The position numbers and the translations under genes were made by a program. DNA of 64,000 nucleotides from Nocardioidaceae bacterium (GTDB lineage Bacteria > Actinomycetota > Actinomycetes > Propionibacteriales > Nocardioidaceae), in contig CP076053.1 in the NCBI GenBank assembly GCA_018672315.1, forward strand, positions 2,157,827 to 2,221,826, written 5' to 3'. Positions 3,592 through 21,301 of this stretch are shown piece after piece (position 1 is the first letter of the stretch; the number at the start of each line of letters is the position of its first letter). A model generated the notes under the pieces. That model made no database searches and had not been told where the DNA came from. It saw nothing but the letters and a program-made list of their open reading frames with translations.

Positions 3592-4905
3592 TCAGCGGGT
3601 GCCGGGCAGGCCGGAGCCCGTGCACAGCTGTCGACCGATGTCCTCGGTGCGGTCCTCCGCGATCAGGCGGAACATGCGGGGCGCGCGCTCGGGGTCCCAG
3701 TTCACCGCGAGGTCGACGATCGGCACCGAGCAGGTCAGACCGTTCTCGCCGTTGACGCGCGTCATCGCGAAGGCGAACCGGCCGAGGGCGAGGGCACCGG
3801 TGCCCTCGCCGACGGCGATGGACTTCGAGCCGGCCTGCCCGATGGCCCAGTACCGGAACGGGTCCAGCACGGTGCGCGGCGAGGTGATCTTCGACCCGAT
3901 CGCACTGACGACCTCGCGCTGGCGCGCGGCCCGGTCGATGTCGCCGAGCGTCGAGGTCTTGCGCGAGCGGGCGTAGCCCAGCGCACGCAGCCCGTTGACC
4001 TCGCTGCAGCCGCGGCGGATCTTCAGGTTCGCCAGCGGGTCCACGATCGGCTCCTCCGGGCACACGGTGATGCCGTCGACCGCGTTCACCAGCTGGACGA
4101 GACCGAGCAGGCCGATCTCGACGTACTCGTCGACGCGGATGCCCGTGTTCTGCTCGATCGTCTGCGCCAGCAGCGGTGCGCCGCCGAAGGCGTACGCCGC
4201 GTTGATCTTCGTGACGCCCTGGTCGGGCACGTCGACCAGCGAGTCCCGGGGGATCGAGAGCAGCAGGTTCGGACCGCTGCCGACGTGGAGGAGCAGGATG
4301 GTGTCGGTGCGCTGACCGACGTCCTCGGGACCCAGCGAGAGCCGACGCCGCTGCCGCTGGGTGAGGTCGCCGCGGCCGTCGTTGCCGACGACGAGGTACG
4401 TCGTGCCCGGCTGGCTCGCGGGTCGGTCACCGGCGGGTTCGAACTCCACGCGCGGCACCTGGGAGAAGGCGTAGAGCGGCACCGCGAGCAGGTAGACCAG
4501 CCAGGCGACCACGAGCAGCAGCAGCGCGCGCCGGATGCGACGACCCGTGCCGCGACGTCGTCGCGGACGGGGCGGCGGCGCGACAGCCGGTGCCGGTCGG
4601 TCCGGCGGAGGGCCGCTGAAGCGGCGGTCGTCCCCGCCACGACCGGCCGCGGCGCCACCACCGCGGGCCCCGGTGGTTTCGGCGGCGCCCGGGCGTCGGA
4701 TCACCTGGGTCTGCTCGTCGTCCGGATCGCGCGGGATGCGCATCACCTGGGTGGGGTCCGCGTCCTGGCTCGGACGCCGGGGGCCACGCGCCTCCCGGGA
4801 CCCGTCCGAGGAACGACCCTTGGAGCCGTACAGCCAGCCGAAGTCGTCCGCCGACTCCCCGGAGTCGCCGGAGCCACCACGACCACCGCGTCCGCTCTCA
4901 CCCAT
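3592..4905 (-). CDS. LytR-CpsA-Psr (LCP) family cell-wall polymer ligase
   Basis: 437 residues. A cytoplasmic tail of about 125 disordered residues is followed by a membrane helix (about 127-148) and an extracellular LCP domain. LCP hallmarks are visible: DTILLLHVG (201-209), the SIPRDSLVDVP arginine-aspartate motif (217-227), KINAAYAFGG (233-242) and a later arginine-rich YARSRKTSTLGDIDRAARQ. LCP enzymes transfer lipid-linked glycopolymers (arabinogalactan, teichoic acid) to peptidoglycan. The tail carries two similar motifs, DPTQVMRIP (Thr52) and EQTQVIRRP (Thr66), plausible Ser/Thr-kinase or FHA-domain sites. First gene of a minus-strand group ahead of the crotonase gene. Confidence 0.9.
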   Translation of the reverse strand: MGESGRGGRGGSGDSGESADDFGWLYGSKGRSSDGSREARGPRRPSQDADPTQVMRIPRDPDDEQTQVIRRPGAAETTGARGGGAAAGRGGDDRRFSGPPPDRPAPAVAPPPRPRRRRGTGRRIRRALLLLVVAWLVYLLAVPLYAFSQVPRVEFEPAGDRPASQPGTTYLVVGNDGRGDLTQRQRRRLSLGPEDVGQRTDTILLLHVGSGPNLLLSIPRDSLVDVPDQGVTKINAAYAFGGAPLLAQTIEQNTGIRVDEYVEIGLLGLVQLVNAVDGITVCPEEPIVDPLANLKIRRGCSEVNGLRALGYARSRKTSTLGDIDRAARQREVVSAIGSKITSPRTVLDPFRYWAIGQAGSKSIAVGEGTGALALGRFAFAMTRVNGENGLTCSVPIVDLAVNWDPERAPRMFRLIAEDRTEDIGRQLCTGSGLPGTR

Positions 4906-4931: not shown

Positions 4932-5801
4932 TCAGACCGGGCGGGCGAGCCGGTCGGCGACCACGCGCCAGACCGCGGGGTCGATGCCCATCGCCAGGTG
5001 CGGGGAGCCGATCTCGACGTGGTCCACGTGCGGTGAGGTGCGGTCCAGGCACGCACGCCAGGCGACGATGCCGTCGCGGCGGGAGAACATCGCGGTCACC
5101 GGGACGCTGATCGGCACCTCGTCGTGGGCGGCGCGCTCGGCCTGCTCCTTCGCCGAGGCGTCGTAGCGGCTCGCCACGAACGTGTACGCCGGTCCGCCCA
5201 CCACCGGGGTCCCGTACGTGACGACCCGACGCACCGCGTCGGGCGACCGGCGGGCGACCTCACGGGAGAGCACTCCACCGAGGCTCCAGCCGACCAGCGA
5301 GACCGGGCCGTGGCGTTCGGCGAGGTTCACGACCTGGGCGTGGAGGCGTCCCACGTCGGTGCGTACGTCGCCCTGGTTGGTGCCGAGGCCCCAGGACCGC
5401 GCGTCGTACCCGAGGCTGCGCAGGAACGTGCGGATCGGCCAGCCCGATGCCTCCGGCGCCTTCCATCCCGGCACGTCGACGACGACGTGCCCGTCACCGC
5501 GGGGCGCGCGGGTGAGGAACGGCGCGGCCAGGGCGAGGCGTACGCCGGTCAGCGGCGTGGTGACCTCTGCGAGCGTCAGGAGCCGCGAGGGGCCGGCGTC
5601 GGGTGGTGGGGTGTCGATGACCAGGTCGGCCAGGGGGTCGCTCAGCCCGGATCCACCACCGTTGATTTGTGGTCGGTGATTCCGGTGGAGCCTTCGCGTC
5701 GCTTGGTCTCGGGGCGTGGCTGATCTGCCGGTCGGTGCCGGCTTTTCCACTTCGAGGTCCTCGGTCGCGCCGTCTCTGGCTGGGTGGTCAGGTCGTGACA
5801 A
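4932..5801 (-). CDS. Alpha/beta hydrolase, 5' end replaced by insertion sequence
   Basis: The hydrolase proper spans 4932-5645 (237 residues) and keeps a complete catalytic triad by motif: nucleophile elbow GWSLGG, acid in SRRDGIV and histidine in GSPHLAM. It resembles lipase/esterase or PHB-depolymerase-like proteins. An IS1380-type element (5646-7282) entered right behind the original start. Rejoining the flanks gives GTG-CAG-CTGAGC, with the original start at 7293 and a protein of about 239 residues. The current frame runs into the element up to a TTG at 5801, which would add about 52 IS-derived residues. Whether the gene is still translated, from IS sequence, is unknown, so it may be a pseudogene. 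Confidence 0.7.
   Translation of the reverse strand: MSRPDHPARDGATEDLEVEKPAPTGRSATPRDQATRRLHRNHRPQINGGGSGLSDPLADLVIDTPPPDAGPSRLLTLAEVTTPLTGVRLALAAPFLTRAPRGDGHVVVDVPGWKAPEASGWPIRTFLRSLGYDARSWGLGTNQGDVRTDVGRLHAQVVNLAERHGPVSLVGWSLGGVLSREVARRSPDAVRRVVTYGTPVVGGPAYTFVASRYDASAKEQAERAAHDEVPISVPVTAMFSRRDGIVAWRACLDRTSPHVDHVEIGSPHLAMGIDPAVWRVVADRLARPV
5641..5645. repeat. Target-site duplication, left copy (CTCAG)
   Basis: CTCAG directly left of the insertion sequence; the identical right copy is at 7283-7287. Removing the element and one copy restores a continuous hydrolase reading frame with an upstream GTG. Confidence 0.85.
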
Positions 5802-7282
5802 GGGCTGGTGGCCCGGACGCGGTCGACCACAACAGTTTCCAGCGCGATGCCCACGGCCAGTGGGTGGGAAGGTGCAGGACGAGGCGCCGGCCGGTGGTCG
5901 CGATCCGGCCGGGGATGTTGATGATCCGGGTGCGCAGGGTTGCCCAGCGGGCGGTGCGCATCGAGGCAGCGACCGCGGTAGCGCGGGCGATGTTGAACGC
6001 GATCACGGCATGGGAGACCCAGGCGGCGTTGGCCGCGTACTTCCCCGACGGCAGGTGCGCGAGCGGACCATCCTTGAGCTCGGCGATGACCTGCTCGACC
6101 AGCGCGTGGTCACGATGACGTTGATCAGCCTCGACGGTCGAAAGTGTGCTGTTGGTGATGAAGGCGTGGTGGCGGTAGGTCGCGAACAGCTCGCCCTGCT
6201 CGGTCCCGTCCGATGCCAGGGGCTGGAGTCGCTTGACCCGGCGCACGACCAGACGACACCGGACGTGCTCGCGCTTGCGGCGGCCGGTGAACGCCACGAA
6301 GGGAACTTCGGCGACCTCGGCGTCGCTGACCCAGCGTTGCTCGTCCTCGTCGTAGACCGCGTTGGGGTACTCGATCGGCTTCCAGGCACCTGCGTCGATG
6401 CTGGTGATCGCCGCGGTCACGCTCGGCGTCATCCGCGCGGTCACCGAGAACCACGTCTTGTGCCGCAGGGCGGTGCCGACGAACGCGTGCCCGTAGTAGG
6501 CGGAGTCCGCACGCGCCAGGATCCGACCGGTCACGCCAGCGGCGCGGGCGGTCGTGATCACCTGGGCCAACAACCTGCCGGCGCCCCTCGCGGAAGCGGT
6601 GTTGCCCTTGCGGAGCCGGGCGCGGGCGATGACTGGTGCTGCGGTCGGAGTCGAGATCGCCGCCAGCTGGACGTTGAGACCGCGCTGGCCGGTGTACCCG
6701 AACGCCGCTCCCTGCTTGGCGTAGCCGTGGACCTCGCGGACGGTGTCGTCGACATCAACGAACGCAATCCCGTCCGCGTCCGAACCGGCGAGCAGGCCGG
6801 GCACCCGGGTCGCGAGTCCGGCCAGCAGCCCGGCGTTGATCTTGTCGAGCTGCTGCACGTGCCCGTGGGTGAACGAGCGCAGGAACGTGCCCAGCGTCGA
6901 CGGTGCCCGGACCCCGGCGAACAGTCGGCCCATCCCACCGTGGCGCAACAGGTCGAGGTCATCGATGGAATCCGCACCGGCGAGCATCCCGCCGACCACC
7001 GACGCGGTCTTCGCAGCAGCGTTCGGCGAGGCCACCGTCAGGTCGTCGAGAAGGTCGTAGAGCCCGGCCGACTCGGCCAGCCGCAGCGCCGGGACCAGAC
7101 CGGCTGCCGACACCAGGTTCGGGTCATCGAACACAGGCCGGATCGTGTGAGAAGGTTTCACTTACGAGGTGCCCCTCTTGAGTGGTTCGGATCGGACGTC
7201 GCAATCCAGATCCTCCCTGCTCAGGAGGGCATTCTCGTTCTACGCCACGCTCACGCCACCACTCGACATCGGTGGATCAGGG
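5646..7282 (-). mobile_element. IS1380-family insertion sequence, 1637 bp
   Basis: The ends are imperfect inverted repeats. The left end at 5646 begins CCCGGATCCACCACCG, and the right end at 7282 read inwards begins CCCTGATCCACCGATG (14 of 19 bases match). The element is flanked by a direct repeat CTCAG at 5641-5645 and 7283-7287, a target-site duplication. IS1380 members are about 1.65 kb with one transposase and usually report 4-bp duplications; here 5 bp fit, one of which may be chance. The intact ends, exact duplication and uninterrupted transposase suggest a fairly recent insertion. Confidence 0.9.
5788..7161 (-). CDS. IS1380-family transposase
   Basis: 457 residues, GTG start at 7161 with AGAGGGG about 10 bases upstream. 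The protein shows a DDE-type layout. First acid region: FVDVDDTVREVHGYAKQG, followed by GYTGQRGLNVQLA. Second: ILARADSAYYGHAF. C-terminal acid helix: HRDHALVEQVIAELKDGPLAHLP, with the conserved tail AANAAWVSHAVIAFNIAR. These are the family's usual landmarks. It acts on the element ends at 5646 and 7282. The frame is intact, so it may still be active. Its stop (5788-5790) lies about 145 bp inside the left end. Confidence 0.92.
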   Translation of the reverse strand: MKPSHTIRPVFDDPNLVSAAGLVPALRLAESAGLYDLLDDLTVASPNAAAKTASVVGGMLAGADSIDDLDLLRHGGMGRLFAGVRAPSTLGTFLRSFTHGHVQQLDKINAGLLAGLATRVPGLLAGSDADGIAFVDVDDTVREVHGYAKQGAAFGYTGQRGLNVQLAAISTPTAAPVIARARLRKGNTASARGAGRLLAQVITTARAAGVTGRILARADSAYYGHAFVGTALRHKTWFSVTARMTPSVTAAITSIDAGAWKPIEYPNAVYDEDEQRWVSDAEVAEVPFVAFTGRRKREHVRCRLVVRRVKRLQPLASDGTEQGELFATYRHHAFITNSTLSTVEADQRHRDHALVEQVIAELKDGPLAHLPSGKYAANAAWVSHAVIAFNIARATAVAASMRTARWATLRTRIINIPGRIATTGRRLVLHLPTHWPWASRWKLLWSTASGPPALVTT

Positions 7283-7954: not shown

Positions 7955-9403
7955 ATGCACCTGCCGGACCAGGCGCCCGAGCAGTCACGACACCGTGCCG
8001 CATCGTTGCGCTTCCGCCGCGCCCTCACCTTGATGGCGATGACCCTGGTGCTGCCGGGGTCCGCCCAGCTCGTCGCCGGCAACCGTCGCGTCGGCCGCAT
8101 CGCCGTTCGCACGGCCGCGACCATCGCCGCGACCGCCGTGCTGGTGCTGCTGCTCGGCGCGCTGTCCTCGGGCGCGGCGATCACGCTGCTCACGCAGGGC
8201 TGGATCCTCGGGCTCGTACGCCTCGGTCTCATGGGCCTCGCGGTCGGGTGGGTGCTGCTCTTCCTCGACGCCTGGCGCCTCGGGCAGCCGCTCGGGCTCG
8301 CCCAGCGCCAGCGGCTCGCGGTCACCGGGGTCAACGGCCTGCTCTGCTTCACCACCGCGGGCGCCCTGCTCTTCGGCGCCAACGTCGCGGGTGTCGCCCA
8401 GGGACTCGTCTCCGACGACGGCGTGCTGTCCTCCGGTGAGGCCTCCGAGCCGTGGGAGGGCCGCTACAACGTGCTGCTGCTCGGCGGCGACTCGGGCGCC
8501 GACCGCTGGGGCCTGCGGCCGGACTCGATCATGGTCGCGAGCATCGACGAGGAGACCGGGCAGACCGTGCTCTTCGGTCTGCCGCGCAACATGGCGGACT
8601 TCACCTTCCCCGAGGGGTCGGTCATGGCGCGGGAGTTCCCGCAGGGCTTCGACTGCGAGGGCTGCTACCTCAACTCGCTGGCCACGTGGGCGCGCGACAA
8701 CCACGAGATCTTCGGCTCCAAGAAGAGCGCCGGCATCGAAGCCACCCTCGAGGCCGTCGAGGGCATCACGGGCCTGCCGATCAACTACTGGGCGATGGTC
8801 AACCTGCGCGGCTTCCGCAACCTCGTCGACGCCGTCGGGGGCGTACGCCTCAACGTCACCCAGCCCATCCCCGTCGGCGGGGTCGGAGCCCCGATCGACT
8901 ACTACATCGAGCCCGGCGAGGACAAGCTGCTCGACGGCTTCGAGACGCTGTGGTTCGCCCGTTCCCGCGCCACCTCCGACGACTACTCGCGGATGGCGCG
9001 CCAGAAGTGCGTCCTCAACGCGATGGTCGAGCAGCTGGACCCGATGACCGTCGTGACCAGCTTCGGGGACATCGCCGAGGCGTCCAAGGCGATGGTCAAG
9101 ACCTCGGTGCCGGCCTCGGAGCTCTCGACCTTCGTGCCCCTGGCGATGAAGGCCCGCTCGCAGCCGATCCGTACGGTGTCCTTCGTGCCGCCGCTCATCG
9201 ACACGGGCAACCCCGACATCGCGCTGATCCACGAGCGCGTACGCCGCGCCCTGGGTGACAGTCCGCGTCCGGAGAAGAAGGCGGCCGTGCCGACCACGCC
9301 GCTCGACCCGAGCGCGGACGAGAACTCGACCGGCGGGTCGCTGGGCACCTTCGCCGACGGCTACGCCGCGAACGACTCCGACGACCTCGACTCGGTGTGC
9401 TGA
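7955..9403 (+). CDS. LCP family protein with multi-pass N-terminus
   Basis: 482 residues. Unlike the single-pass LCP protein at 3592-4905, the first ~140 residues hold about four hydrophobic segments, beginning with a conserved-looking LPGSAQLVAGNRRVGRIAVR. The extracellular LCP domain follows: NVLLLGGDSGADRWGLRPDS, VLFGLPRNMADF (the usual IPRD-like site reads LPRN here), and WFARSRATSDDYSRMARQ. It ends in an unstructured tail. Predicted to attach a lipid-linked glycan to peptidoglycan at the outer membrane face. Its stop overlaps the start of the next gene (GTG 9397-9399, TGA 9401-9403), so it belongs to the galactan operon and that polymer is the likely substrate. Confidence 0.88.
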   Translation: MHLPDQAPEQSRHRAASLRFRRALTLMAMTLVLPGSAQLVAGNRRVGRIAVRTAATIAATAVLVLLLGALSSGAAITLLTQGWILGLVRLGLMGLAVGWVLLFLDAWRLGQPLGLAQRQRLAVTGVNGLLCFTTAGALLFGANVAGVAQGLVSDDGVLSSGEASEPWEGRYNVLLLGGDSGADRWGLRPDSIMVASIDEETGQTVLFGLPRNMADFTFPEGSVMAREFPQGFDCEGCYLNSLATWARDNHEIFGSKKSAGIEATLEAVEGITGLPINYWAMVNLRGFRNLVDAVGGVRLNVTQPIPVGGVGAPIDYYIEPGEDKLLDGFETLWFARSRATSDDYSRMARQKCVLNAMVEQLDPMTVVTSFGDIAEASKAMVKTSVPASELSTFVPLAMKARSQPIRTVSFVPPLIDTGNPDIALIHERVRRALGDSPRPEKKAAVPTTPLDPSADENSTGGSLGTFADGYAANDSDDLDSVC

Positions 9404-11253
9404 GCGAGGGCGACGCGCACCGGGTCGTCGCCGTCGTCGTCACCTGGAACCGCCGCGAGCTGCTCGGGGAGGCCCTCGACGCCCTGGCGGCGCAGGAGCA
9501 CCCGCTCGAGCGTGTCGTGGTCATCGACAACGCCAGCGACGACGGCACCGCGGAGCTCCTCGCCCACCGGGCGCAGTCGGACCCGCTGCTGGACGTGCGC
9601 ACGCTCGCCGAGAACCTGGGCGGGGCCGGTGGGTTCGCCGCCGGCATCGCCCGGGCCCTGACCCACAGCCCCGACCTGGTCTGGCTGCTCGACGACGACA
9701 CCGTCCCCACCGCCACCGCGCTCGGTGCCGCGGTGACGGCCTGGCGTGACCACCCCGGCGACCCCCAGGGCCGACGACCGGCGGTGGTGGCCTCGCGGGT
9801 GGTGTGGACCGACGGGCGCGACCACCCGATGAACACCCCGCGCGAGAAGCCCGGGGTCAGCCGGGGCGAGCGCGCGGCGGCGGCGGCGGTCGGCTGCACG
9901 GCCGTGCGCTCGGCGTCCTTCGTCTCGATCCTGTGCGACGCCGCACGCGTCCGCGAGCGCGGCCTGCCCGTGGCCGACTACTTCCTGTGGAACGACGACT
10001 TCGAGTACTCCACGCGGCTCATCCGCGGTGGCTCCGGTCTCTGGTGCCCGGCCTCGGTCGTCGTGCACAAGACCAGGACGTTCGGCGCGACCGACGTCGA
10101 CCCCGGCGAGAGGTTCTTCTGGGAGGTCCGCAACAAGACCTGGATGTTCACCCGGTCGACGAGCCTCGCGCCGTCGGAGAAGCTGCTCTACGGCGCCTCG
10201 ACGGTGCGGCGGTGGGCGCGCACGTACGCCCGGTCCGCCGACCGTGCCACGCTGCGCCGCGGTCTCGTGCGTGGTCTGCGCGAGGGGTTCACGACGCAGC
10301 CCGCACCGACCGGTCGGCTCGTGGCGCACGCCCGGGAGTCCCGGGGCATCGGCCGGGACCTCGACGCCGGCGTGGCCTTCAGCCTCCTGATGAGCACGTG
10401 GGCCGGCGACCGGCCCGACTTCCTGCGCGAGGCGTTCCGCTCGGCGGTGGTCGACCAGACGCGTCGGCCCGCCGAGGTCGTGCTCGTCGAGGACGGTCCC
10501 GTGACCCCCGAGCTGGAAGAGGCCCTCACCGAGCTCGTCGCGCAGAGCCCGGTGCCGGTGCGACGGCTGCGGCTGCCCGCCAACGGCGGGCTCGGTCCTG
10601 CCCTGGACGCCGGGCTCGCCGCGTGTCGGCACGACGTCGTGGCCCGCATGGACACCGACGACCTGTGCGTCCCGGACCGGTTCGAGCGCCAGCTCCCGCT
10701 CATCGAGGCGGGCGCCGACATCGTCGGTGCCGGACTGGTCGAGTTCGGGGAGACGCCCGAGGACGTGGTGGGCCGTCGTACGCCTCCGACGGACCCGGCC
10801 GAGATCCGCCGTGTGATCCGCTTCCGCGACCCCTTCAACCACCCGACCGTGGTCTACCGCCGCGCCGCGGTCCTGGCGGCCGGTGGGTACACCGACATGC
10901 CGCTGATGGAGGACTACCTGCTCTTCACCCGCATGGTGGAAGCAGGCGCGGAGCCCGCCAACCTGGCCGAGCCGCTGGTCCTCTACCGCGTCGGCGCAGG
11001 CGCGTACGCCCGGCGCGGCGGGGGAGCTCTGCTGCGCTCCGAGCTCGCGCTGCAGCGTCGGTTCCGGCGCCTCGGACTGACCTCACGCCGCCAGTACGCA
11101 CGCAACGTGCTCGTCCGGGGCGGCTACCGCCTGGTGCCCGAGTCGGTGCGCCGCGCGGCGTACCGTCGGCTGCTGGCCAACCGCGGCGACGGGCCCGGCT
11201 CGCAGCCGTCCGCTCGCGGCGACCGCACGCCGATAGACTCCAGCCGCCCGTAG
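9397..11253 (+). CDS. Fused two-domain GT2 glycosyltransferase (GlfT1-like plus second GT2)
   Basis: 618 residues containing two family-2 glycosyltransferase domains. Domain 1 (about 8-260) resembles GlfT1, the enzyme that adds the first galactofuranoses to the linker: VVVTWNRRELL, DNASDDGT, ENLGGAGGF, WLLDDDTVP (DDD at 99-101), WNDDFEYSTRLI and the WEVRNKTWMF end. Domain 2 (about 327-560) is an independent GT2: SLLMSTW, VEDGP, ANGGLGPALDAGL, RMDTDDLCVPDRF (DTDD 419-422) and FNHPTVVYRR, like AmsE-type enzymes. Mycobacterial GlfT1 (Rv3782) is a single-domain protein of about 300 residues, so the fusion is notable. It sits between the LCP gene and glf, with coupled translation. Confidence 0.85.
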   Translation: MLSEGDAHRVVAVVVTWNRRELLGEALDALAAQEHPLERVVVIDNASDDGTAELLAHRAQSDPLLDVRTLAENLGGAGGFAAGIARALTHSPDLVWLLDDDTVPTATALGAAVTAWRDHPGDPQGRRPAVVASRVVWTDGRDHPMNTPREKPGVSRGERAAAAAVGCTAVRSASFVSILCDAARVRERGLPVADYFLWNDDFEYSTRLIRGGSGLWCPASVVVHKTRTFGATDVDPGERFFWEVRNKTWMFTRSTSLAPSEKLLYGASTVRRWARTYARSADRATLRRGLVRGLREGFTTQPAPTGRLVAHARESRGIGRDLDAGVAFSLLMSTWAGDRPDFLREAFRSAVVDQTRRPAEVVLVEDGPVTPELEEALTELVAQSPVPVRRLRLPANGGLGPALDAGLAACRHDVVARMDTDDLCVPDRFERQLPLIEAGADIVGAGLVEFGETPEDVVGRRTPPTDPAEIRRVIRFRDPFNHPTVVYRRAAVLAAGGYTDMPLMEDYLLFTRMVEAGAEPANLAEPLVLYRVGAGAYARRGGGALLRSELALQRRFRRLGLTSRRQYARNVLVRGGYRLVPESVRRAAYRRLLANRGDGPGSQPSARGDRTPIDSSRP

Positions 11254-11262
11254 ACGTCCTAG

Positions 11263-14533
<3,271 letters not shown>

Positions 14534-14537
<4 letters not shown>

Positions 14538-15451
14538 GCACCACCCACGCGGACGCGGGCGGCGAGAGACCGGCGTACGCCGACCTCCCCCTGCGCTCGC
14601 CCTCGCCCTCGGGCGGGCTGATCGAGGTCGCGCGACGCTGGTACCTGCTGCGCCTGATCGTGATGCGGCAGCTGGCGAAGCAGTACTCGGGGTCCTTCCT
14701 CGGCTTCTTCTGGTCCTACCTGCAGCCAGGCGTGCGCTTCGTCGTCTACTACTTCGCCATCGGCCTGGTGCTGCGCGTCGGCACGACCACGCCGAACTTC
14801 GCCATCCACCTCTTCACCGGGCTGGTCGCCGTCACCTTCTTCGTGCAGAGCTTCGGCCTCGGCACCCGCGCGATCCAGCAGAACCGGCAGCTGGTCTCCA
14901 AGATGGCGCTGCCGCGGGAGGTCTTCCCGATCTCGGCGGTGGTCGTCGCGGTCTTCCACACCGTCCCGATGCTGCTGTTCCTGACCGTGGCCTGCGGGCT
15001 GATCGGCTGGAACGGCGACTGGACGGGGGTGCTCGCTGTCTTCCTGGGGCTGGCGATGCTGACCGTCTTCGCGATCGGCACGGCCCTGCTCTTCAGCGCG
15101 CTGAACGTCTACTTCCGCGACTTTCAGAACATCGTCGCGACCATCACGCAGTTCATGCACTTCATGGTGCCGATGATCTACCCGTACTCGCGGCTCTCGG
15201 AGAGCTCGATCGGCGGCACCTGGATCGAGCAGCTCTACCTCGCCAACCCCGTCGCTCCCGCCGTGCTCCTGCTGCAGCGCGGCTTCTGGGACGGTGTCAG
15301 CGTGGGGGACCCGGCGTACGACTTCGCGGCGTCCTACCCGCCGCACCTGATCGAGCGGGGCTTGATCATGCTCGTGATCGGCCTGGTCTTCCTGGTCTTC
15401 AGCCAGTGGGTCTTCCGCCGCCTGGAGAACAAGTTCCCGGAGCGACTCTGA
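14534..15451 (+). CDS. wzm: ABC-2 type polysaccharide export permease (Wzm)
   Basis: 305 residues, GTG start inside the glfT2 stop (4-bp overlap). Six hydrophobic segments follow a cytoplasmic N-terminus that includes the amphipathic ARRWYLLRLIVMRQLAKQYSG, a pattern of ABC-2 permeases exporting O-antigen, teichoic acid or galactan. Together with the ATPase encoded next it should flip the lipid-linked galactan across the membrane, as Rv3783-Rv3781 do in mycobacteria. Ends with the basic tail FRRLENKFPERL. Confidence 0.93.
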
Positions 15452-16266
15452 TGAGCGGCACGACCGGCGGCGCCAGGCCGACCAGCATCGTCGTCGACCA
15501 CGCGTCCAAGGCCTTCACCCTGCGCTACCAGCGCAGCCTGAAGGACATGGTGGTGGCCCGGGCCCGGGGGCACCGCACCTCCGAGCGGTTCCTGGCCCTC
15601 GACGACGTCTCGTTCACGGTCGAGCAGGGCGAGTCGGTCGGTCTGATGGGGCTGAACGGGTCGGGCAAGTCGACCCTCCTACGCATGATCAACGGGGTGA
15701 TGCGGCCCGACGGGGGCGAGGTGCTCGTACGCGGCCACGTCGCCGGGCTGATCGCGACCGGTGCGGGCTTCCAGCCCCAGCTCTCGGGCCGCGACAACCT
15801 GTTCCTCAACGCCGCGATCCTGGGCATGTCCGCCAAGGAGACCAAGCGCAAGTTCGACGACATCGTCGAGTTCGCCGACATCGGCAAGTTCCTCGACACC
15901 CCGGTCTCGAACTACTCCTCGGGCATGGGAGCGCGGCTCGGCTTCGCCATCGCGATCCACGTGGACTCCGACGTGTTCCTCGCCGACGAGGTGCTCGCCG
16001 TGGGGGACCGGCCCTTCAAGAAGAAGTGCATGGAGCGCATGCAGGAGATCCGCACGTCCGGGCGCACGCTCTTCTACGTCAGTCACGCGCCGGCGTCGGT
16101 GCGCAAGATGTGCGACCGGGTGATCGTGCTGCAGAACGGCAAGGTCGGATTCGACGGCAGCGTCGACGAGGGCATCCGCTTCCTCGACTACGACGGTGAC
16201 GGCAAGGGGGCCCCCGAGGACCCCGACGACGACATGCCCGACGACGATTACGGCGCGGACGTCTGA
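15451..16266 (+). CDS. wzt: ABC transporter ATP-binding subunit for polysaccharide export (Wzt)
   Basis: 271 residues from the ATG at 15451, which overlaps the wzm stop (TGATGA). Walker A is GLNGSGKST (67-75), the signature motif is YSSGM (155-159, the form usual in Wzt/TagH proteins rather than LSGGQ), Walker B is VFLADE (175-180) and the D-loop follows at VLAVGD. An N-terminal insertion (SLKDMVVARARGHRTSERF) before the core strand is typical of teichoic-acid/galactan exporters. There is no carbohydrate-binding C-terminal domain; the protein ends in an acidic tail rich in Asp. It powers Wzm, and is the last gene of the coupled galactan operon. Confidence 0.94.
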   Translation: MSGTTGGARPTSIVVDHASKAFTLRYQRSLKDMVVARARGHRTSERFLALDDVSFTVEQGESVGLMGLNGSGKSTLLRMINGVMRPDGGEVLVRGHVAGLIATGAGFQPQLSGRDNLFLNAAILGMSAKETKRKFDDIVEFADIGKFLDTPVSNYSSGMGARLGFAIAIHVDSDVFLADEVLAVGDRPFKKKCMERMQEIRTSGRTLFYVSHAPASVRKMCDRVIVLQNGKVGFDGSVDEGIRFLDYDGDGKGAPEDPDDDMPDDDYGADV

Positions 16267-16458: not shown

Positions 16459-19416
16459 ATGTCCCCACGTCGGGAACAGCTCGTCGCGGCCTGTCAGCAG
16501 CTGCTGGTCGTCGGTGTCGTCGCCGCCGTCGCCGTGCCCGCGACCGCCATCGTCCAGCTCGACGTGGTCGGCCCCGCCGATGAGCGGACCGGGGCCGCCC
16601 CCGCGCTCGGGGTTCCGGGCGAGCGGGCTCTCGTCGCTCCCGCACCGGTCGACGTACGCGTCACCGAGCACGCCCTGACCGGGCGGTCGACCGCTGCCGC
16701 GCGGACACCGGCCGGACGCGCCGAGCGCATCCTGCACGAGGTCGCCGAGGCGCAGCACGCACACGAGCACGAGGGTGAGGGCGACCTGGTCCTGTCCTCG
16801 GCCACGACGGAGCCGACAGGCCCGGGGTCCGAGGAGGCCGTCGAGGACGTCGTCGACGACGTCGCCGAGGAGACCGAGCAGGAGCTGGCCGTGCTCAGCG
16901 AGCCGACCGAGGTCGCGGGACCCGCCACCGTCGGCGTCACCTGGGACCCCGAGACGACCTTCGACAAGGGCCAGATCAGCATCGCCGTACGCAGCCGCAG
17001 CGGTGAGGCGTGGTCGGACTGGACGGCGCTGTACTACGACCCCGCCCACGGGCCCGACCCCGAGTCGCCGGAGGCGGCGCAGGCGCGTCCGGGCACCGGG
17101 GAGCTCATCGTCGGTGACGTCGAGGAGGTGCAGGTCGCCGCGGCCACCGAGGACGGAGCGGTGCCCGAGGGCATGAGCCTCGCGGTGGTCGACCCCGGCA
17201 CCACCGAGGACGAGGTCGTCGAGGCCCCCGAGATCGACACCGCCGAGCTGGACTCCGCGAAGACCGGTGCGGAGGAGTCGTCCACCGAAGGCGCCGACCT
17301 CGAGCTCTCGGCGTCGTCAGCCCGGCTGCCCGAGACCTCGGTGACCCCGAAGCCGAAGATCTTCTCCCGCGCCCAGTGGGGCGCCAACGAGTCGATGCGT
17401 GACGCGTCGTCGCTGAGCTACTTCGAGGTGCACGCCGGCTTCGTGCACCACACCGTCAACGCCAACAACTACAGCCGGCGCGACGTGCCGGCGCTGATGC
17501 GCGGCATCTACGCCTACCACACGCAGTCCCGCGGCTGGTCCGACATCGGCTACAACTTCATCGTCGACCGCTTCGGCCGGATCTGGGAGGGGCGCGCCGG
17601 TGGCGTGGACCGTCCGGTGGTCGGGGCGCACACGCTCGGCTACAACGAGTACTCCTTCGCGATGTCGGCTCTCGGCAACTTCGAGGAGGTGCAGCCGCGC
17701 GAGAAGATGATCGACGCGTACGCCCGCCTGTTCGCCTGGAAGCTCTCGCTGCACGGCGTCTCGGCGTCCTCGACGAGCCAGTACGTCGGCTCGCGCACCT
17801 TCCCGGCCATCAACGGTCACCGCGACGCCGGCTCGACGGCGTGCCCCGGTCGCTTCCTGTACGCCCGGATCCCCGACATCCGGACGCGGGCGGCCGCCTA
17901 CCAGGCGAGCTTCACCGGCCGTGACCGCTCGGCGTCGGTGAGCGGCACCACCTGGCCGGACATCCTGCTGCGACGCAAGGGCGCCACCCGGATGCAGGTG
18001 CTGCCGACCGAGGGTCAGCTGCGGTTCGCGAAGGGGCGTACGGCGACCGACGCCCTCGAGGGCTACGACATCGTCACGCCCGTCGGGGACTTCGACGGGG
18101 ACGGTCTGGGCGACATGCTGGCCCGCGACGCGGACACGAGGCTGACGCGCGTGTTCACCGGTGACGGTGAGGGCGGGTACAGGCCGACGGACCGCACGCT
18201 GAAGACCTTCAAGCCGATGTCGGAGATCGCCGACGCCGGTGACATCGACGGCGACGGCAGGGCCGACGTGGTGGCCCGTCACCGCGACGGGCGGCTGTTC
18301 CTGCACCGCGGTCGCAACGGTGGCCTGCGCAAGCGGGTCCTCTTCACCGACCAGGCGACGCAGTACCGCGGAGTGCAGGGCGCAGGGGACATCGACGGCG
18401 ACGGCGACGAGGACCTGCTGGCACGCGACGGCGACGGCGCGGCGGTGGCCCTGCTGGGCAACGGTTCGCGGGGTCTCTCGACGGTCCGCCGCCTGCCCGG
18501 GTCCTGGAGCCAGTTCGACATCCTCGCCGCCGGCCACGACCTGACCGGCGACGGGCGCAGCGACGTGGTCGTGCGGCTCGGCTCGACCAAGAAGGTCTTC
18601 GTCTACCCGGTCGTGGGAGACATGCAGCTCGGCAGCCCGCAGGGGCCGTTCCGGACCGTCCGCGGCATCAGCCGGCTGTGGGTCGTCGGCGACGGTGGCC
18701 CGACCCAGCGTCTGGTGGGGCGCGAGGGCTCCCGTGCCATCAGCTTCGCGAGCAACGGTCGTCACAACGTCTCCGACGTGGTCACCACCAACGTCGACGT
18801 GAGCAAGGCCAACGCGCTGCTGAACGTCGGCGACTGGGACGGGGACGGCTACGGCGACGTCATCGTGCGCGAGCGTCGCTTCCTGAAGCTGTGGCGCGGG
18901 TCGGCGGACGGTCAGTTCGCCGGTCCGACGACGCTGAGCAAGAACTTCGCGAAGGTCCGCCTGCTCGCCCCGGCCGGGGACATGACCGGCGACGGTCGCC
19001 CCGACCTGATCGGGCAGCCCAAGGGCTCGGCCATGCGCATCTACCCCGGTGGCGGCTCGAGCGTCGGCGGCGGGTACGTCGCGCACTCCGCGATCGCCGG
19101 CAACCGCCAGGTGGTCGTGGGCCGCTGGAACGCCGACGGCGCGCCGGACTCCCTGGTCTCCCAGACCGACGGCAAGGTGCGGCTCTACCCGGGCAACGGT
19201 CCGGGCGGCCTGAAGTCGCCGCGCTCGGTCCGCGGCAACGTCAAGGGCATGAGCCGTCTGGTCGCGGTCGGCGACCTCGACAACGACGGCAGGCCCGACG
19301 TCGTCGGGCGCCAGAAGGGCAGCGGCATGCTGGTGCAGCTGACGCGCACCAAGAAGGGTCTGGGCCTGCCGCAGTACGTCGACGGCACCTACACGGACTA
19401 CGACCTCATCGGGTGA
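16459..19416 (+). CDS. Secreted N-acetylmuramoyl-L-alanine amidase with FG-GAP repeats
   Basis: 985 residues, ATG with CAGGAGTG upstream. An N-terminal hydrophobic stretch (about 14-32) is a likely signal peptide. Residues ~60-290 form an acidic, low-complexity and beta-rich region. The amidase_2/PGRP domain spans about 305-485: FSRAQWGANESM, Zn-ligand motif GFVHHTVNANNY, the GWSDIGYNFIVDRFGRIWEG core and the final ligands in NGHRDAGSTACPGRF. It should cut the amide between MurNAc and L-Ala. The C-terminal half carries at least seven Asp-rich calcium-type repeats (DFDGDGLGDM, DIDGDGRADV, DWDGDGYGDV, DLDNDGRPDV and others), predicted to form a beta-propeller. Rv3811, next to glf/glfT2 in M. 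tuberculosis, is a comparable amidase. Its end overlaps the convergent neighbour by 11 bp. Confidence 0.92.
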   Translation: MSPRREQLVAACQQLLVVGVVAAVAVPATAIVQLDVVGPADERTGAAPALGVPGERALVAPAPVDVRVTEHALTGRSTAAARTPAGRAERILHEVAEAQHAHEHEGEGDLVLSSATTEPTGPGSEEAVEDVVDDVAEETEQELAVLSEPTEVAGPATVGVTWDPETTFDKGQISIAVRSRSGEAWSDWTALYYDPAHGPDPESPEAAQARPGTGELIVGDVEEVQVAAATEDGAVPEGMSLAVVDPGTTEDEVVEAPEIDTAELDSAKTGAEESSTEGADLELSASSARLPETSVTPKPKIFSRAQWGANESMRDASSLSYFEVHAGFVHHTVNANNYSRRDVPALMRGIYAYHTQSRGWSDIGYNFIVDRFGRIWEGRAGGVDRPVVGAHTLGYNEYSFAMSALGNFEEVQPREKMIDAYARLFAWKLSLHGVSASSTSQYVGSRTFPAINGHRDAGSTACPGRFLYARIPDIRTRAAAYQASFTGRDRSASVSGTTWPDILLRRKGATRMQVLPTEGQLRFAKGRTATDALEGYDIVTPVGDFDGDGLGDMLARDADTRLTRVFTGDGEGGYRPTDRTLKTFKPMSEIADAGDIDGDGRADVVARHRDGRLFLHRGRNGGLRKRVLFTDQATQYRGVQGAGDIDGDGDEDLLARDGDGAAVALLGNGSRGLSTVRRLPGSWSQFDILAAGHDLTGDGRSDVVVRLGSTKKVFVYPVVGDMQLGSPQGPFRTVRGISRLWVVGDGGPTQRLVGREGSRAISFASNGRHNVSDVVTTNVDVSKANALLNVGDWDGDGYGDVIVRERRFLKLWRGSADGQFAGPTTLSKNFAKVRLLAPAGDMTGDGRPDLIGQPKGSAMRIYPGGGSSVGGGYVAHSAIAGNRQVVVGRWNADGAPDSLVSQTDGKVRLYPGNGPGGLKSPRSVRGNVKGMSRLVAVGDLDNDGRPDVVGRQKGSGMLVQLTRTKKGLGLPQYVDGTYTDYDLIG

Positions 19417-20149: not shown

Positions 20150-20212
20150 GCCCCCACCGTAGGTGCGGCCGACGTGGCCGGTGGCCGCACCGGGCCTGGC
20201 ATCATGCGGGCC

Positions 20213-21301
20213 GTGAGCGACCACACGGGCGATTCGAGCGACACACCCGATCTCGGCACCATCGAGGCGGTGATCGTCGCGGGCGGCTTCGGCAGCCGGA
20301 TGATGCCCTTGACCGAGCGTCGGCCGAAGCACCTGCTGGAGGTCGCCGGTGTGCCGTTCGTGGAGCACCAGCTGACCCGCCTGGCGCAGGCCGGTGTGGG
20401 CACGGTGGTGCTGGCGACCAGCTACCACGCGGAGATGTTCGAGCCGGTGCTCGGCGACGGGTCCCGCTTCGGTCTCGAGCTGGTCTACGTGACCGAGGAG
20501 GAGCCGCTCGGCACGGGTGGGGCGATCCGCAACGTCTCCGACGCCCTGACCGACGACCCCGACGCCGCGATCGTGATCCTCAACGGGGACATCCTCTCCT
20601 CCCACGACCTGCGTGCGCAGCTGCTCGGCTTCCGTACGCCGCGGGAGGGTCGGGCCGTCGACGTCAGCCTCCACCTGGTCACCGTCGACGACGCGCGCGC
20701 CTTCGGAGCGGTGCCCACCGACGAGGTCGGACGGGTGACGGACTTCCTGGAGAAGTCCGAGGACCCGGTGACGAACCAGATCAACGCGGGCTGCTACGTG
20801 TTCCGCCGGTCGGTCGTCGACGCCATCCCCGCGGGGGAGGTCGTCTCGGTCGAGTACGACACCTTCCCCGGCCTGCTCCGTGACGACGCCGTGGTGGTGG
20901 GCCACGTCGACGCGGCCTACTGGCGCGACGTCGGCCACCCCCACTCGGTCGTCGGGGCCTCCTGCGACCTCGTGCTGGGCGTCGGGTCCAGCCCTGCGTT
21001 CTCACCGACCCCGGGGGCGGCCGCCTGGGTCTCGTCCGACGCGGTCGTGGGGGAGGGGGCGGTCGTGGACGGCGGCTCCGCCGTCAGCGCGGGCGCCGAG
21101 ATCGGCGAGGGAGCGGTCGTCTCGGGCAGCGTCGTCCACCCCGGCGCGACCGTCGGCCCCGGTGCCCGGGTGGTCGACTCCGTCGTCGCCTGCGGCGCCC
21201 GCATCGGCGCCGGCGCCGGCGTCATCTCGTGCGCCGTCGGCGACGACGCGGAAGTCCCGGACGGCGCTCAGCTGAGCGACGAGAAGATTCCTTGCGGGTG
21301 A
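20213..21301 (+). CDS. manC: Mannose-1-phosphate guanylyltransferase (sugar nucleotidyltransferase)
   Basis: 362 residues from the GTG at 20213; an ATG three codons earlier (20204) is equally possible. Nucleotidyltransferase signature AVIVAGGFGSRMMPLTERRPKHLL, then TEEEPLGTGGAIRNV, the metal-site LNGDILSSHDL, FLEKSEDPVTNQINAGCYVF and YWRDVGHPHS. The C-terminal ~90 residues form hexapeptide (left-handed beta-helix) repeats such as VGEGAVVDGGSAVSAGAEIG. It resembles Rv3264c, which makes GDP-mannose from mannose-1-phosphate and GTP. With the phosphomannomutase at 25874 it supplies GDP-mannose for lipoglycans. Glucose or other sugar specificity cannot be excluded from sequence alone. Confidence 0.85.
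   Translation: MSDHTGDSSDTPDLGTIEAVIVAGGFGSRMMPLTERRPKHLLEVAGVPFVEHQLTRLAQAGVGTVVLATSYHAEMFEPVLGDGSRFGLELVYVTEEEPLGTGGAIRNVSDALTDDPDAAIVILNGDILSSHDLRAQLLGFRTPREGRAVDVSLHLVTVDDARAFGAVPTDEVGRVTDFLEKSEDPVTNQINAGCYVFRRSVVDAIPAGEVVSVEYDTFPGLLRDDAVVVGHVDAAYWRDVGHPHSVVGASCDLVLGVGSSPAFSPTPGAAAWVSSDAVVGEGAVVDGGSAVSAGAEIGEGAVVSGSVVHPGATVGPGARVVDSVVACGARIGAGAGVISCAVGDDAEVPDGAQLSDEKIPCG

Follow-up and report, generated by a model that had tools for sequence, protein, structure and literature searches.

How is a wall galactan begun where a GlfT1-like enzyme is joined to a second glycosyltransferase? In mycobacteria, WecA and WbbL are described as making polyprenyl-diphosphate-linked N-acetylglucosamine-rhamnose (GlcNAc-Rha), to which GlfT1 adds the first two galactofuranose (Galf) residues (PMC10951656, PMC4213368). 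The question is raised by a locus of a Nocardioidaceae bacterium (assembly GCA_018672315.1, contig CP076053.1). In the 64,000-nucleotide stretch analysed here (positions 2,157,827 to 2,221,826 of the forward strand; hereafter "the window"), a plus-strand gene at 9397-11253 encodes a protein of 618 amino acids that, by Pfam, AlphaFold2 and comparison with relatives, comprises two GT2/GT-A glycosyltransferase domains, termed D1 and D2. We propose, with a probability of roughly one half, that this fusion is a two-enzyme starter for wall galactan in which D2 would carry out WbbL's step, the addition of the second linker sugar, without rhamnose.

The fusion gene and its product

The GTG start of the open reading frame overlaps the stop of an LCP (LytR-CpsA-Psr) gene at 7955-9403, and glf begins 21 bases beyond its end, at 11275. 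Its third-position GC content is 0.93, and the same uninterrupted fusion is present in 41 of the 89 loci that we classed (the best 80 of 201 relatives from a scan of a genome collection, and nine from whole-genome searches; L148 duplicates L015). It is thus neither an assembly error nor a chance reading frame.

Pfam places PF00535 in two stretches of the protein (best at residues 339-487; E 1.4e-40 for the whole protein) and PF13641 best at residues 9-173. The AlphaFold2 model, whose alignment input was 38 fused proteins including the window's own, has a mean predicted local distance difference test (pLDDT) score of 86.3 and shows two GT-A domains; model confidence drops at residues 314-319. 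That stretch falls in the linker (residues 313-327; 10333-10377) between D1 (about residues 9-312; 9421-10332) and D2 (about residues 328-600; 10378-11196), all on the plus strand. D1, the GlfT-type domain, carries GGAGGF (75-80), DDD (99-101), WNDDFE (198-203), H224 and RN (245-246); D2 carries DTDD (419-422), HP (482-483), ED (505-506), YR (530-531) and RRGG (539-542). Across the 38 aligned fused proteins, GGAGGF, DDD, WNDD.E, H224 and RN are invariant in D1, as are D-x-D-D, HP, ED and RRGG in D2; 35 of the 38 have A as the second letter of the D419-T-D421-D422 motif. That T excepted, the D2 motif set is also invariant in 25 of 25 aligned D2 rows drawn from fused and separate copies. Each half has a GT2 profile match, a GT-A fold and an Asp-rich motif, and both look catalytically complete, although the roles of the motif residues are inferred. 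The C-terminal parts of the two domains are strongly basic (16 Lys and Arg against 5 Asp and Glu at residues 236-313; 17 against 2 at 535-596), which would suit enzymes working at the membrane face. An earlier note on this DNA had claimed two GT2 domains in one protein, the second with a DTDD of its own; both points are borne out, and the model contains two complete catalytic domains rather than one.

That note also called the first half GlfT1-like, a term that holds for motifs and fold. GG[AS]GG[FY], a motif defined from our own alignment and not from a curated source, and DDD are common to the rows of D1, GlfT1, GlfT2 and two further GlfT-type enzymes described below (GTa and GTb); the former occurs in 24 of 24 D1 rows versus 0 of 25 D2 rows. 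The D1 model matches GlfT2 of Nocardia brasiliensis (9nj0) with Z 23.2 and 3.2 Å over 282 residues. D1 reaches 85.6 bits (over residues 10-210) against the NCBIfam GlfT1 model NF050113, for which the cut-off is 330, and is therefore GlfT1-like but not a GlfT1 equivalog. With the same model, a mycobacterial-type GlfT1 (from G070; 523.8 bits) and the GlfT1 of G139 (377.9 bits) pass, and a GlfT1-like protein of G002 (245.5 bits) fails. In a tree made with a short search and having weak deep forks, the 12 D1 rows group together on a separate branch (support 93, unstarred) that excludes the GlfT1 rows. The GlfT1 proteins compared are of single-domain length (331 and 344 amino acids), in agreement with the note's contrast between the fusion and single-domain GlfT1.

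D2 modelled alone has a pLDDT of 89.2 and a predicted template modelling (pTM) score of 0.85. Its fold relatives are the second domain of the chondroitin polymerase K4CP (Z 24.1) and AvpGT (Z 23.8), along with WrtF and the wall teichoic acid enzymes TarP, TarS and RmlT. The best matches bind uridine diphosphate (UDP), guanosine diphosphate (GDP) or deoxythymidine diphosphate (dTDP) sugars; because the neighbours use several kinds of donor, D2's sugar is not readable from the fold. D2 is matched by no curated NCBIfam model at its cut-off, its score against the EpsE model NF053739 (68.6 bits) being far below 450. BLASTP against two WbbL proteins gave no match above 35 bits, which rules out D2 as a WbbL ortholog by sequence.

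WbbL and dTDP-rhamnose genes

A WbbL profile, built from three genomes that are all among those it retrieves, finds orthologs in 19 of 79 genomes searched (461.8-596.5 bits). All 19 belong to family f5 and have GlfT2, and none has D2; conversely, each of the 19 GlfT2 genomes of f5 carries a WbbL ortholog, although the copy in G057 holds an internal TGA. No WbbL ortholog was found in any of the 42 distinct D2 genomes searched with this profile (43 entries, of which G216 and G230 appear to be one genome). The best scores there are 166.9 bits, from a Pseudonocardia relic in G255, and then 129.8. The window's own genome has no match to the profile at 1e-15.

The dTDP-rhamnose genes RmlC and RmlD were also sought. 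At E 1e-40, RmlD is found in 19 of 19 WbbL genomes versus 6 of 11 sampled D2 genomes (G109 excluded; Fisher p 0.003, kinship not removed). At 1e-25 it is found in 32 of the 79 genomes behind the D1/D2 loci, which are partly metagenome-assembled genomes (MAGs) of unknown completeness. In the window's genome, a single contig that is 99.36% complete, RmlD was not found (best 41.5 of 224 bits), nor was RmlC at 1e-10. RmlC was sought in 35 genomes, and 13 of them gave no match at 1e-10; RmlD was not found in these 13 either. All 13, the window's genome included, carry D1, D2 and GlfT2. Nocardioides jiangsuensis WL0053 (L016/G231) and Psychromicrobium silvestre DSM 102047 (L039/G241), both with D1-D2, are examples of strains that yielded neither RmlC nor RmlD. 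Thus, galactan genes of the D1-D2 kind persist in genomes that seem to lack the canonical dTDP-rhamnose route. Both RmlC and RmlD occur in other D2 genomes.

A decayed WbbL beside D2 in Pseudonocardia

In three mycobacterial-type genomes that were fetched, an outward-facing LCP gene is followed by rmlD, wbbL and manB. With D2 set on the plus strand, D2 lies between an outward LCP gene and manB in 16 of 71 loci. Ten of these are from Nocardioidaceae and carry the D1-D2 galactan operon at this place; the other six are from Pseudonocardia and carry D2 alone. Both borders are present in the window: a second LCP gene on the left (3592-4905, minus strand; PF03816 E 4.1e-37, and synteny) and, on the right, a manB-like sugar-1-phosphate nucleotidyltransferase gene (20174-21301, plus strand; NF052502 405.3 bits, below the cut-off of 440).

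In all six Pseudonocardia loci (L055, L056, L060, L067, L068 and L070), a WbbL-like frame, 39-49% identical to the WbbL of G070, stands after D2 and before manB. The E of its ED pair is replaced in six of six and the D of its PDV in five, and the D2 motifs are intact in the same six. We regard the decayed WbbL beside an intact D2 as the most telling single observation of this study; to judge from the replaced residues, the WbbL-like gene possibly encodes a pseudoenzyme. As a separate matter, three Pseudonocardia genomes have a second, divergent GlfT2-like gene (L159:9700-11436, L160:8801-10522 and L162:9665-11395; 29-31% identity), convergent with glfT2. A candidate relic in the window, between the amidase gene described below and manB, was rejected: the frame there is on the minus strand, is not WbbL-like by eye and has no PF00535 match.

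Conservation of the D1-D2 pair

Besides the 41 fused loci, there are 27 in which D1 and D2 are neighbouring genes and 12 in which they lie apart in the same region; six loci, all Pseudonocardia, have D2 alone and three have D1 alone. None of the three is a clear case of D1 without D2: L074 ends within D1, the contig of L079 ends 5.3 kb past D1, and L048 has D2 in two frames. In this last locus, from the complete genome of Leucobacter coleopterorum, the split D2 (L048:11009-11838) adjoins an intact D1 frame. A tree of 77 rows (short search; the contig-truncated rows L020, L029, L072 and L073 left out) needs at least six changes between fused and not fused, four of them forced by starred branches, and a single origin of the fusion was rejected on this ground; gain and loss are indistinguishable in it. 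D1 and D2 thus stay associated, while the join between them has been made or undone on several occasions, a pattern expected of enzymes for linked steps. It is the pair, not the fusion, that is conserved; the fusion is optional.

We also surveyed 226 genomes of the class Actinomycetes. The genome searches scored a capped number of candidates per genome (10-11 for D2, D1 and RmlD, and 30 in the WbbL search of 79 genomes described above), a depth at which weak or buried copies may escape. D2 orthologs occur in 12 of the genomes (251-461 bits; next best genome 126) and D1 orthologs in 10 (381-503 bits; next genome 143), all ten also with D2. GlfT2 is present in 48 of the 226 overall, but in 12 of 12 D2 genomes; in 14 control genomes its search matched Corynebacterium glutamicum alone. 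The enzyme is likewise found in 70 of the 79 genomes behind the D1/D2 loci, which rules out D1-D2 without GlfT2 as a rule. Five Actinomycetaceae loci (L034, L035, L038, L041 and L053) have the D1-D2 fusion and no match to the GlfT2 domain PF19320; a further GlfT-type gene lies downstream of wzt in L038, L041 and L053, and L034 gives a 29% tblastn match to GlfT2 despite the missing PF19320 match.

The 48 GlfT2 genomes can be sorted into 19 of family f5 without D2, 11 with D2, 11 of genus g3 with GTa/GTb, and seven others. Ten of the 11 with D2 also have D1. The D1-D2 pair is about 32 kb from glfT2 in G081, and in G139 the neighbour of D2 is a true GlfT1 equivalog. Genus g3, which belongs to the window's own family, has in place of D1-D2 an overlapping tandem of two GlfT-type genes, GTa and GTb, located upstream of glf in the three loci fetched (L133:2795-4644, L134:5396-7254 and L139:5433-7231); ten of the eleven g3 genomes were checked by tblastn and G198 by profile only. 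Two more distant copies of D2 were seen. G109, one of the eleven, has only a D2 paralog of 44% identity (L140:3432-4232, minus strand), which is not on the contig that carries its galactan genes, and Arsenicicoccus cauae has, about 2.6 kb downstream of the D1-D2 pair, a second D2-like gene (L049:14308-15153; 42% identity).

A proposed role for the fusion

Taking together the two complete domains, the operon, the conserved pairing and the WbbL, RmlC and RmlD not found in the genomes named above, we suggest the following route. WecA, the presumed first enzyme, would provide a polyprenyl-diphosphate-linked first sugar, to which D2 would add a second linker sugar from a donor other than dTDP-L-rhamnose. 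D1 would then place the first galactofuranose(s) on D2's sugar, as GlfT1 does; GlfT2 would polymerise the chain, Wzm-Wzt would export it and the LCP enzyme would attach it to peptidoglycan. The order of action, the acceptor and the place of D2's sugar in the linker are what we infer from the genomic pattern. The fusion may channel the intermediate between the two active sites, an optional refinement given that many relatives use two separate proteins.

The earlier note had offered a branch, a cap or a different linker sugar as the possible work of the second domain, giving a galactan unlike that of Mycobacterium. Among its three options, the linker sugar fits the genomic evidence best, namely the lack of any WbbL ortholog found in 42 D2 genomes, of RmlC and RmlD in 13, and the decayed WbbL in six Pseudonocardia loci. 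What sets the polymer apart is not the fusion as such, however: in 39 of 89 loci the two enzymes are encoded by separate genes. We further put forward, tentatively but as a credible extension, that one GlfT2 is fed by at least three starter modules: WbbL and GlfT1 with rhamnose, the GTa-GTb tandem, and D1 and D2 with a rhamnose-free linker. D2 would then have displaced WbbL, with Pseudonocardia caught holding both, and would have been fused to D1 in several lines.

Several observations weigh against this proposal. The exclusion of WbbL and D2 is confounded with ancestry: in our sample WbbL is confined to family f5, which makes the exclusion a family-level fact. Further, 18 of the 48 GlfT2 genomes have neither WbbL nor D2 by their galactan genes (the 11 with GTa/GTb and the seven others), so the absence of WbbL alone is not enough to give D2 the step. 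RmlD is present in six of the 11 D2 genomes, in two of these with a score below the curated cut-off, and an RmlC-like gene is kept in five of the 18 RmlD-less D2 genomes checked. The position between LCP and manB is limited to the 16 of 71 loci given above, with one border in 25 and neither in 30, many of these stretches being short. The Pseudonocardia relic is an open frame that might serve some non-catalytic function, and five stretches fetched round GlfT2 from three Pseudonocardia genomes yielded neither GlfT1 nor D1. D1-D2 is patchy in the window's own family (two of 20 sampled genomes, G000 and G216), and no GlfT2 match by PF19320 was found in nine of the 79 D1/D2 genomes (five from Actinomycetaceae, including two MAGs, and four further MAGs). 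Finally, a two-hybrid study in Corynebacterium glutamicum, in the part available, marks no contact between WbbL and GlfT1 (PMC4213368); a closeness of these two steps is therefore not general.

Four other roles for D2 were weighed. The best surviving of them, though unlikely, is that D2 decorates the galactan with a side branch or terminal cap once D1 and GlfT2 have done their work. Growing glycans are substrates of many GT2 enzymes, D2 is distantly EpsE-like (with the sub-threshold score given above), and TarP, TarS and RmlT, among its fold relatives, have roles in decorating polymers. Against this, D2 is coupled to the initiating enzyme D1 in 10 of 10 genomes, while 36 of the 48 GlfT2 genomes lack a D2 ortholog. 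In Pseudonocardia, moreover, D2 sits in the wbbL locus beside the decayed WbbL, and a branch or cap would leave the missing WbbL step unexplained.

It is distinctly less likely that D1 and D2 split between them the two Galf additions of mycobacterial GlfT1 (beta-1,4 then beta-1,5), with the GlcNAc lipid itself as the acceptor for D1. GlfT1 has been described as bifunctional (PMC7168186, PMC10951656), glf adjoins the D1-D2 pair, and the g3 tandem upstream of glf offers an example of two GlfT-type enzymes side by side. However, the GG[AS]GG[FY] motif shared by D1, GlfT1, GlfT2, GTa and GTb is missing from every D2 row, and in G139 D2 also accompanies a GlfT1 equivalog.

We give little credence to D2 as a rhamnosyltransferase that replaces WbbL without homology and leaves the linker as Rha-GlcNAc. 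There is a precedent in Klebsiella, where ORF3-O7 and WbbL-O12 are described as dissimilar GT2 enzymes with the same WbbL activity (PMC11231755); RmlT, with TDP-rhamnose, is a fold relative of D2, and RmlD is present in six of the 11 sampled D2 genomes. But the 13 genomes with D1, D2 and GlfT2 show neither RmlC nor RmlD, and D2 rows are 47-76% identical to the window's D2 and share a single invariant motif set, a pattern that speaks for the same donor in all of them. That D1-D2 is an alternating two-sugar polymerase like K4CP is very improbable: K4CP and heparosan synthase 2 are its best whole-chain fold matches (Foldseek E 3.1e-20 for K4CP) and nine D1/D2 genomes, five of them Actinomycetaceae, lack a GlfT2 match, but the whole-chain superposition is poor (root-mean-square deviation 15 Å over 433 residues), GlfT2 is present in the other 70 of the 79 genomes and the two enzymes are so often separate genes.

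If the proposal of a rhamnose-free linker made by D2 is true, many other actinobacteria would appear to build on a different linker with the same polymerase, mutase and exporter, and the comparison would reveal which parts of the galactan pathway are fixed and which are interchangeable. It would also give non-mycobacterial strains for studying the priming of GlfT2, and would offer structural studies a naturally fused pair of successive enzymes. D2, a GT2 family that curated NCBIfam models leave unnamed at their cut-offs, gains a testable role. Mycobacterial galactan enzymes are described as essential and as drug targets (PMC7168186). In the open-licence literature, the matches listed included no title or abstract that deals with the fusion, D2 or a Nocardioides galactan, which does not prove that there is none in print.

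The operon and its surroundings

The gene order LCP-fusion-glf-glfT2-wzm-wzt is as in one operon, since neighbours overlap by a few bases or sit within 21 bases of each other. All of these genes are on the plus strand. The LCP glycopolymer transferase gene upstream of the fusion (7955-9403) matches PF03816 (E 2.2e-22) and TIGR00350 (73.1 bits, cut-off 62.3). The gene glf (11275-12456) encodes UDP-galactopyranose mutase (TIGR00031, 342.2 bits, cut-off 303.75), and glfT2 (12453-14537), for which a GTG start overlapping the glf stop is inferred, encodes the polymerising galactofuranosyltransferase (PF17994 E 1.6e-32; PF19320 E 7.6e-48). The transporter is encoded by wzm (ABC-2 membrane subunit, 14534-15451; PF01061 E 1.2e-10) and wzt (ATPase, 15448-16266, start inferred; PF00005 E 3.6e-22), the latter scoring 161.6 bits against NF050108, galactan_ABC_ATP, below the cut-off of 400. 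Pfam thus supports all five of the partners that the earlier note had assigned to the operon.

Two further genes lie close by. An IS1380 family transposase gene (5788-7161, minus strand; NF033539, 291.1 bits, cut-off 180) separates the left LCP gene from the galactan operon. After wzt, at 16459-19416 on the plus strand, a gene encodes a 985-amino acid protein with an Amidase_2 domain and FG-GAP repeats; its homologs adjoin the operon in many Nocardioidaceae loci, and it is possibly a wall hydrolase tied to the galactan polymer.

Comparison with known systems

The closest comparisons are with the mycobacterial starter enzymes. D1 resembles GlfT1 (Rv3782; NF050113) in its GT-A fold, in its GGAGGF and DDD motifs and in its likely place in the pathway before GlfT2, but is fused to a second GT2, unlike the single-domain GlfT1 proteins compared here. 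D2 seems to hold the same pathway slot as the mycobacterial rhamnosyltransferase WbbL (Rv3265c), and lies in the same locus in Pseudonocardia; it differs in having no BLASTP match above the threshold to WbbL and in occurring in 13 genomes in which RmlC and RmlD were not found.

Outside the mycobacteria, K4CP (2z86) and heparosan synthase 2 (8vh7) likewise have two GT-A domains in one chain. With them, however, the fusion shares only 10-17% identity and a loose superposition; it shows no sign of polymerase function, and D1 and D2 are often separate genes. WbbM of Klebsiella pneumoniae O2a is, as described (PMC12269835), also one protein with two glycosyltransferase domains, one of them a Galf transferase, in a galactan pathway; its domains are of families GT111 and GT8 and its role is polymer-making, and the likeness is taken from its description. 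The Klebsiella enzymes ORF3-O7 and WbbL-O12 (PMC11231755) offer a precedent of another kind: in the account given there, dissimilar GT2 enzymes serve the same adapter step of an ABC-transporter-dependent polysaccharide, although both use rhamnose, act in lipopolysaccharide rather than a Gram-positive wall, and are separate single enzymes. Set beside these systems, D1-D2 may be a variant of the known mycobacterial galactan pathway, and that pathway may be started in more than one chemical way.

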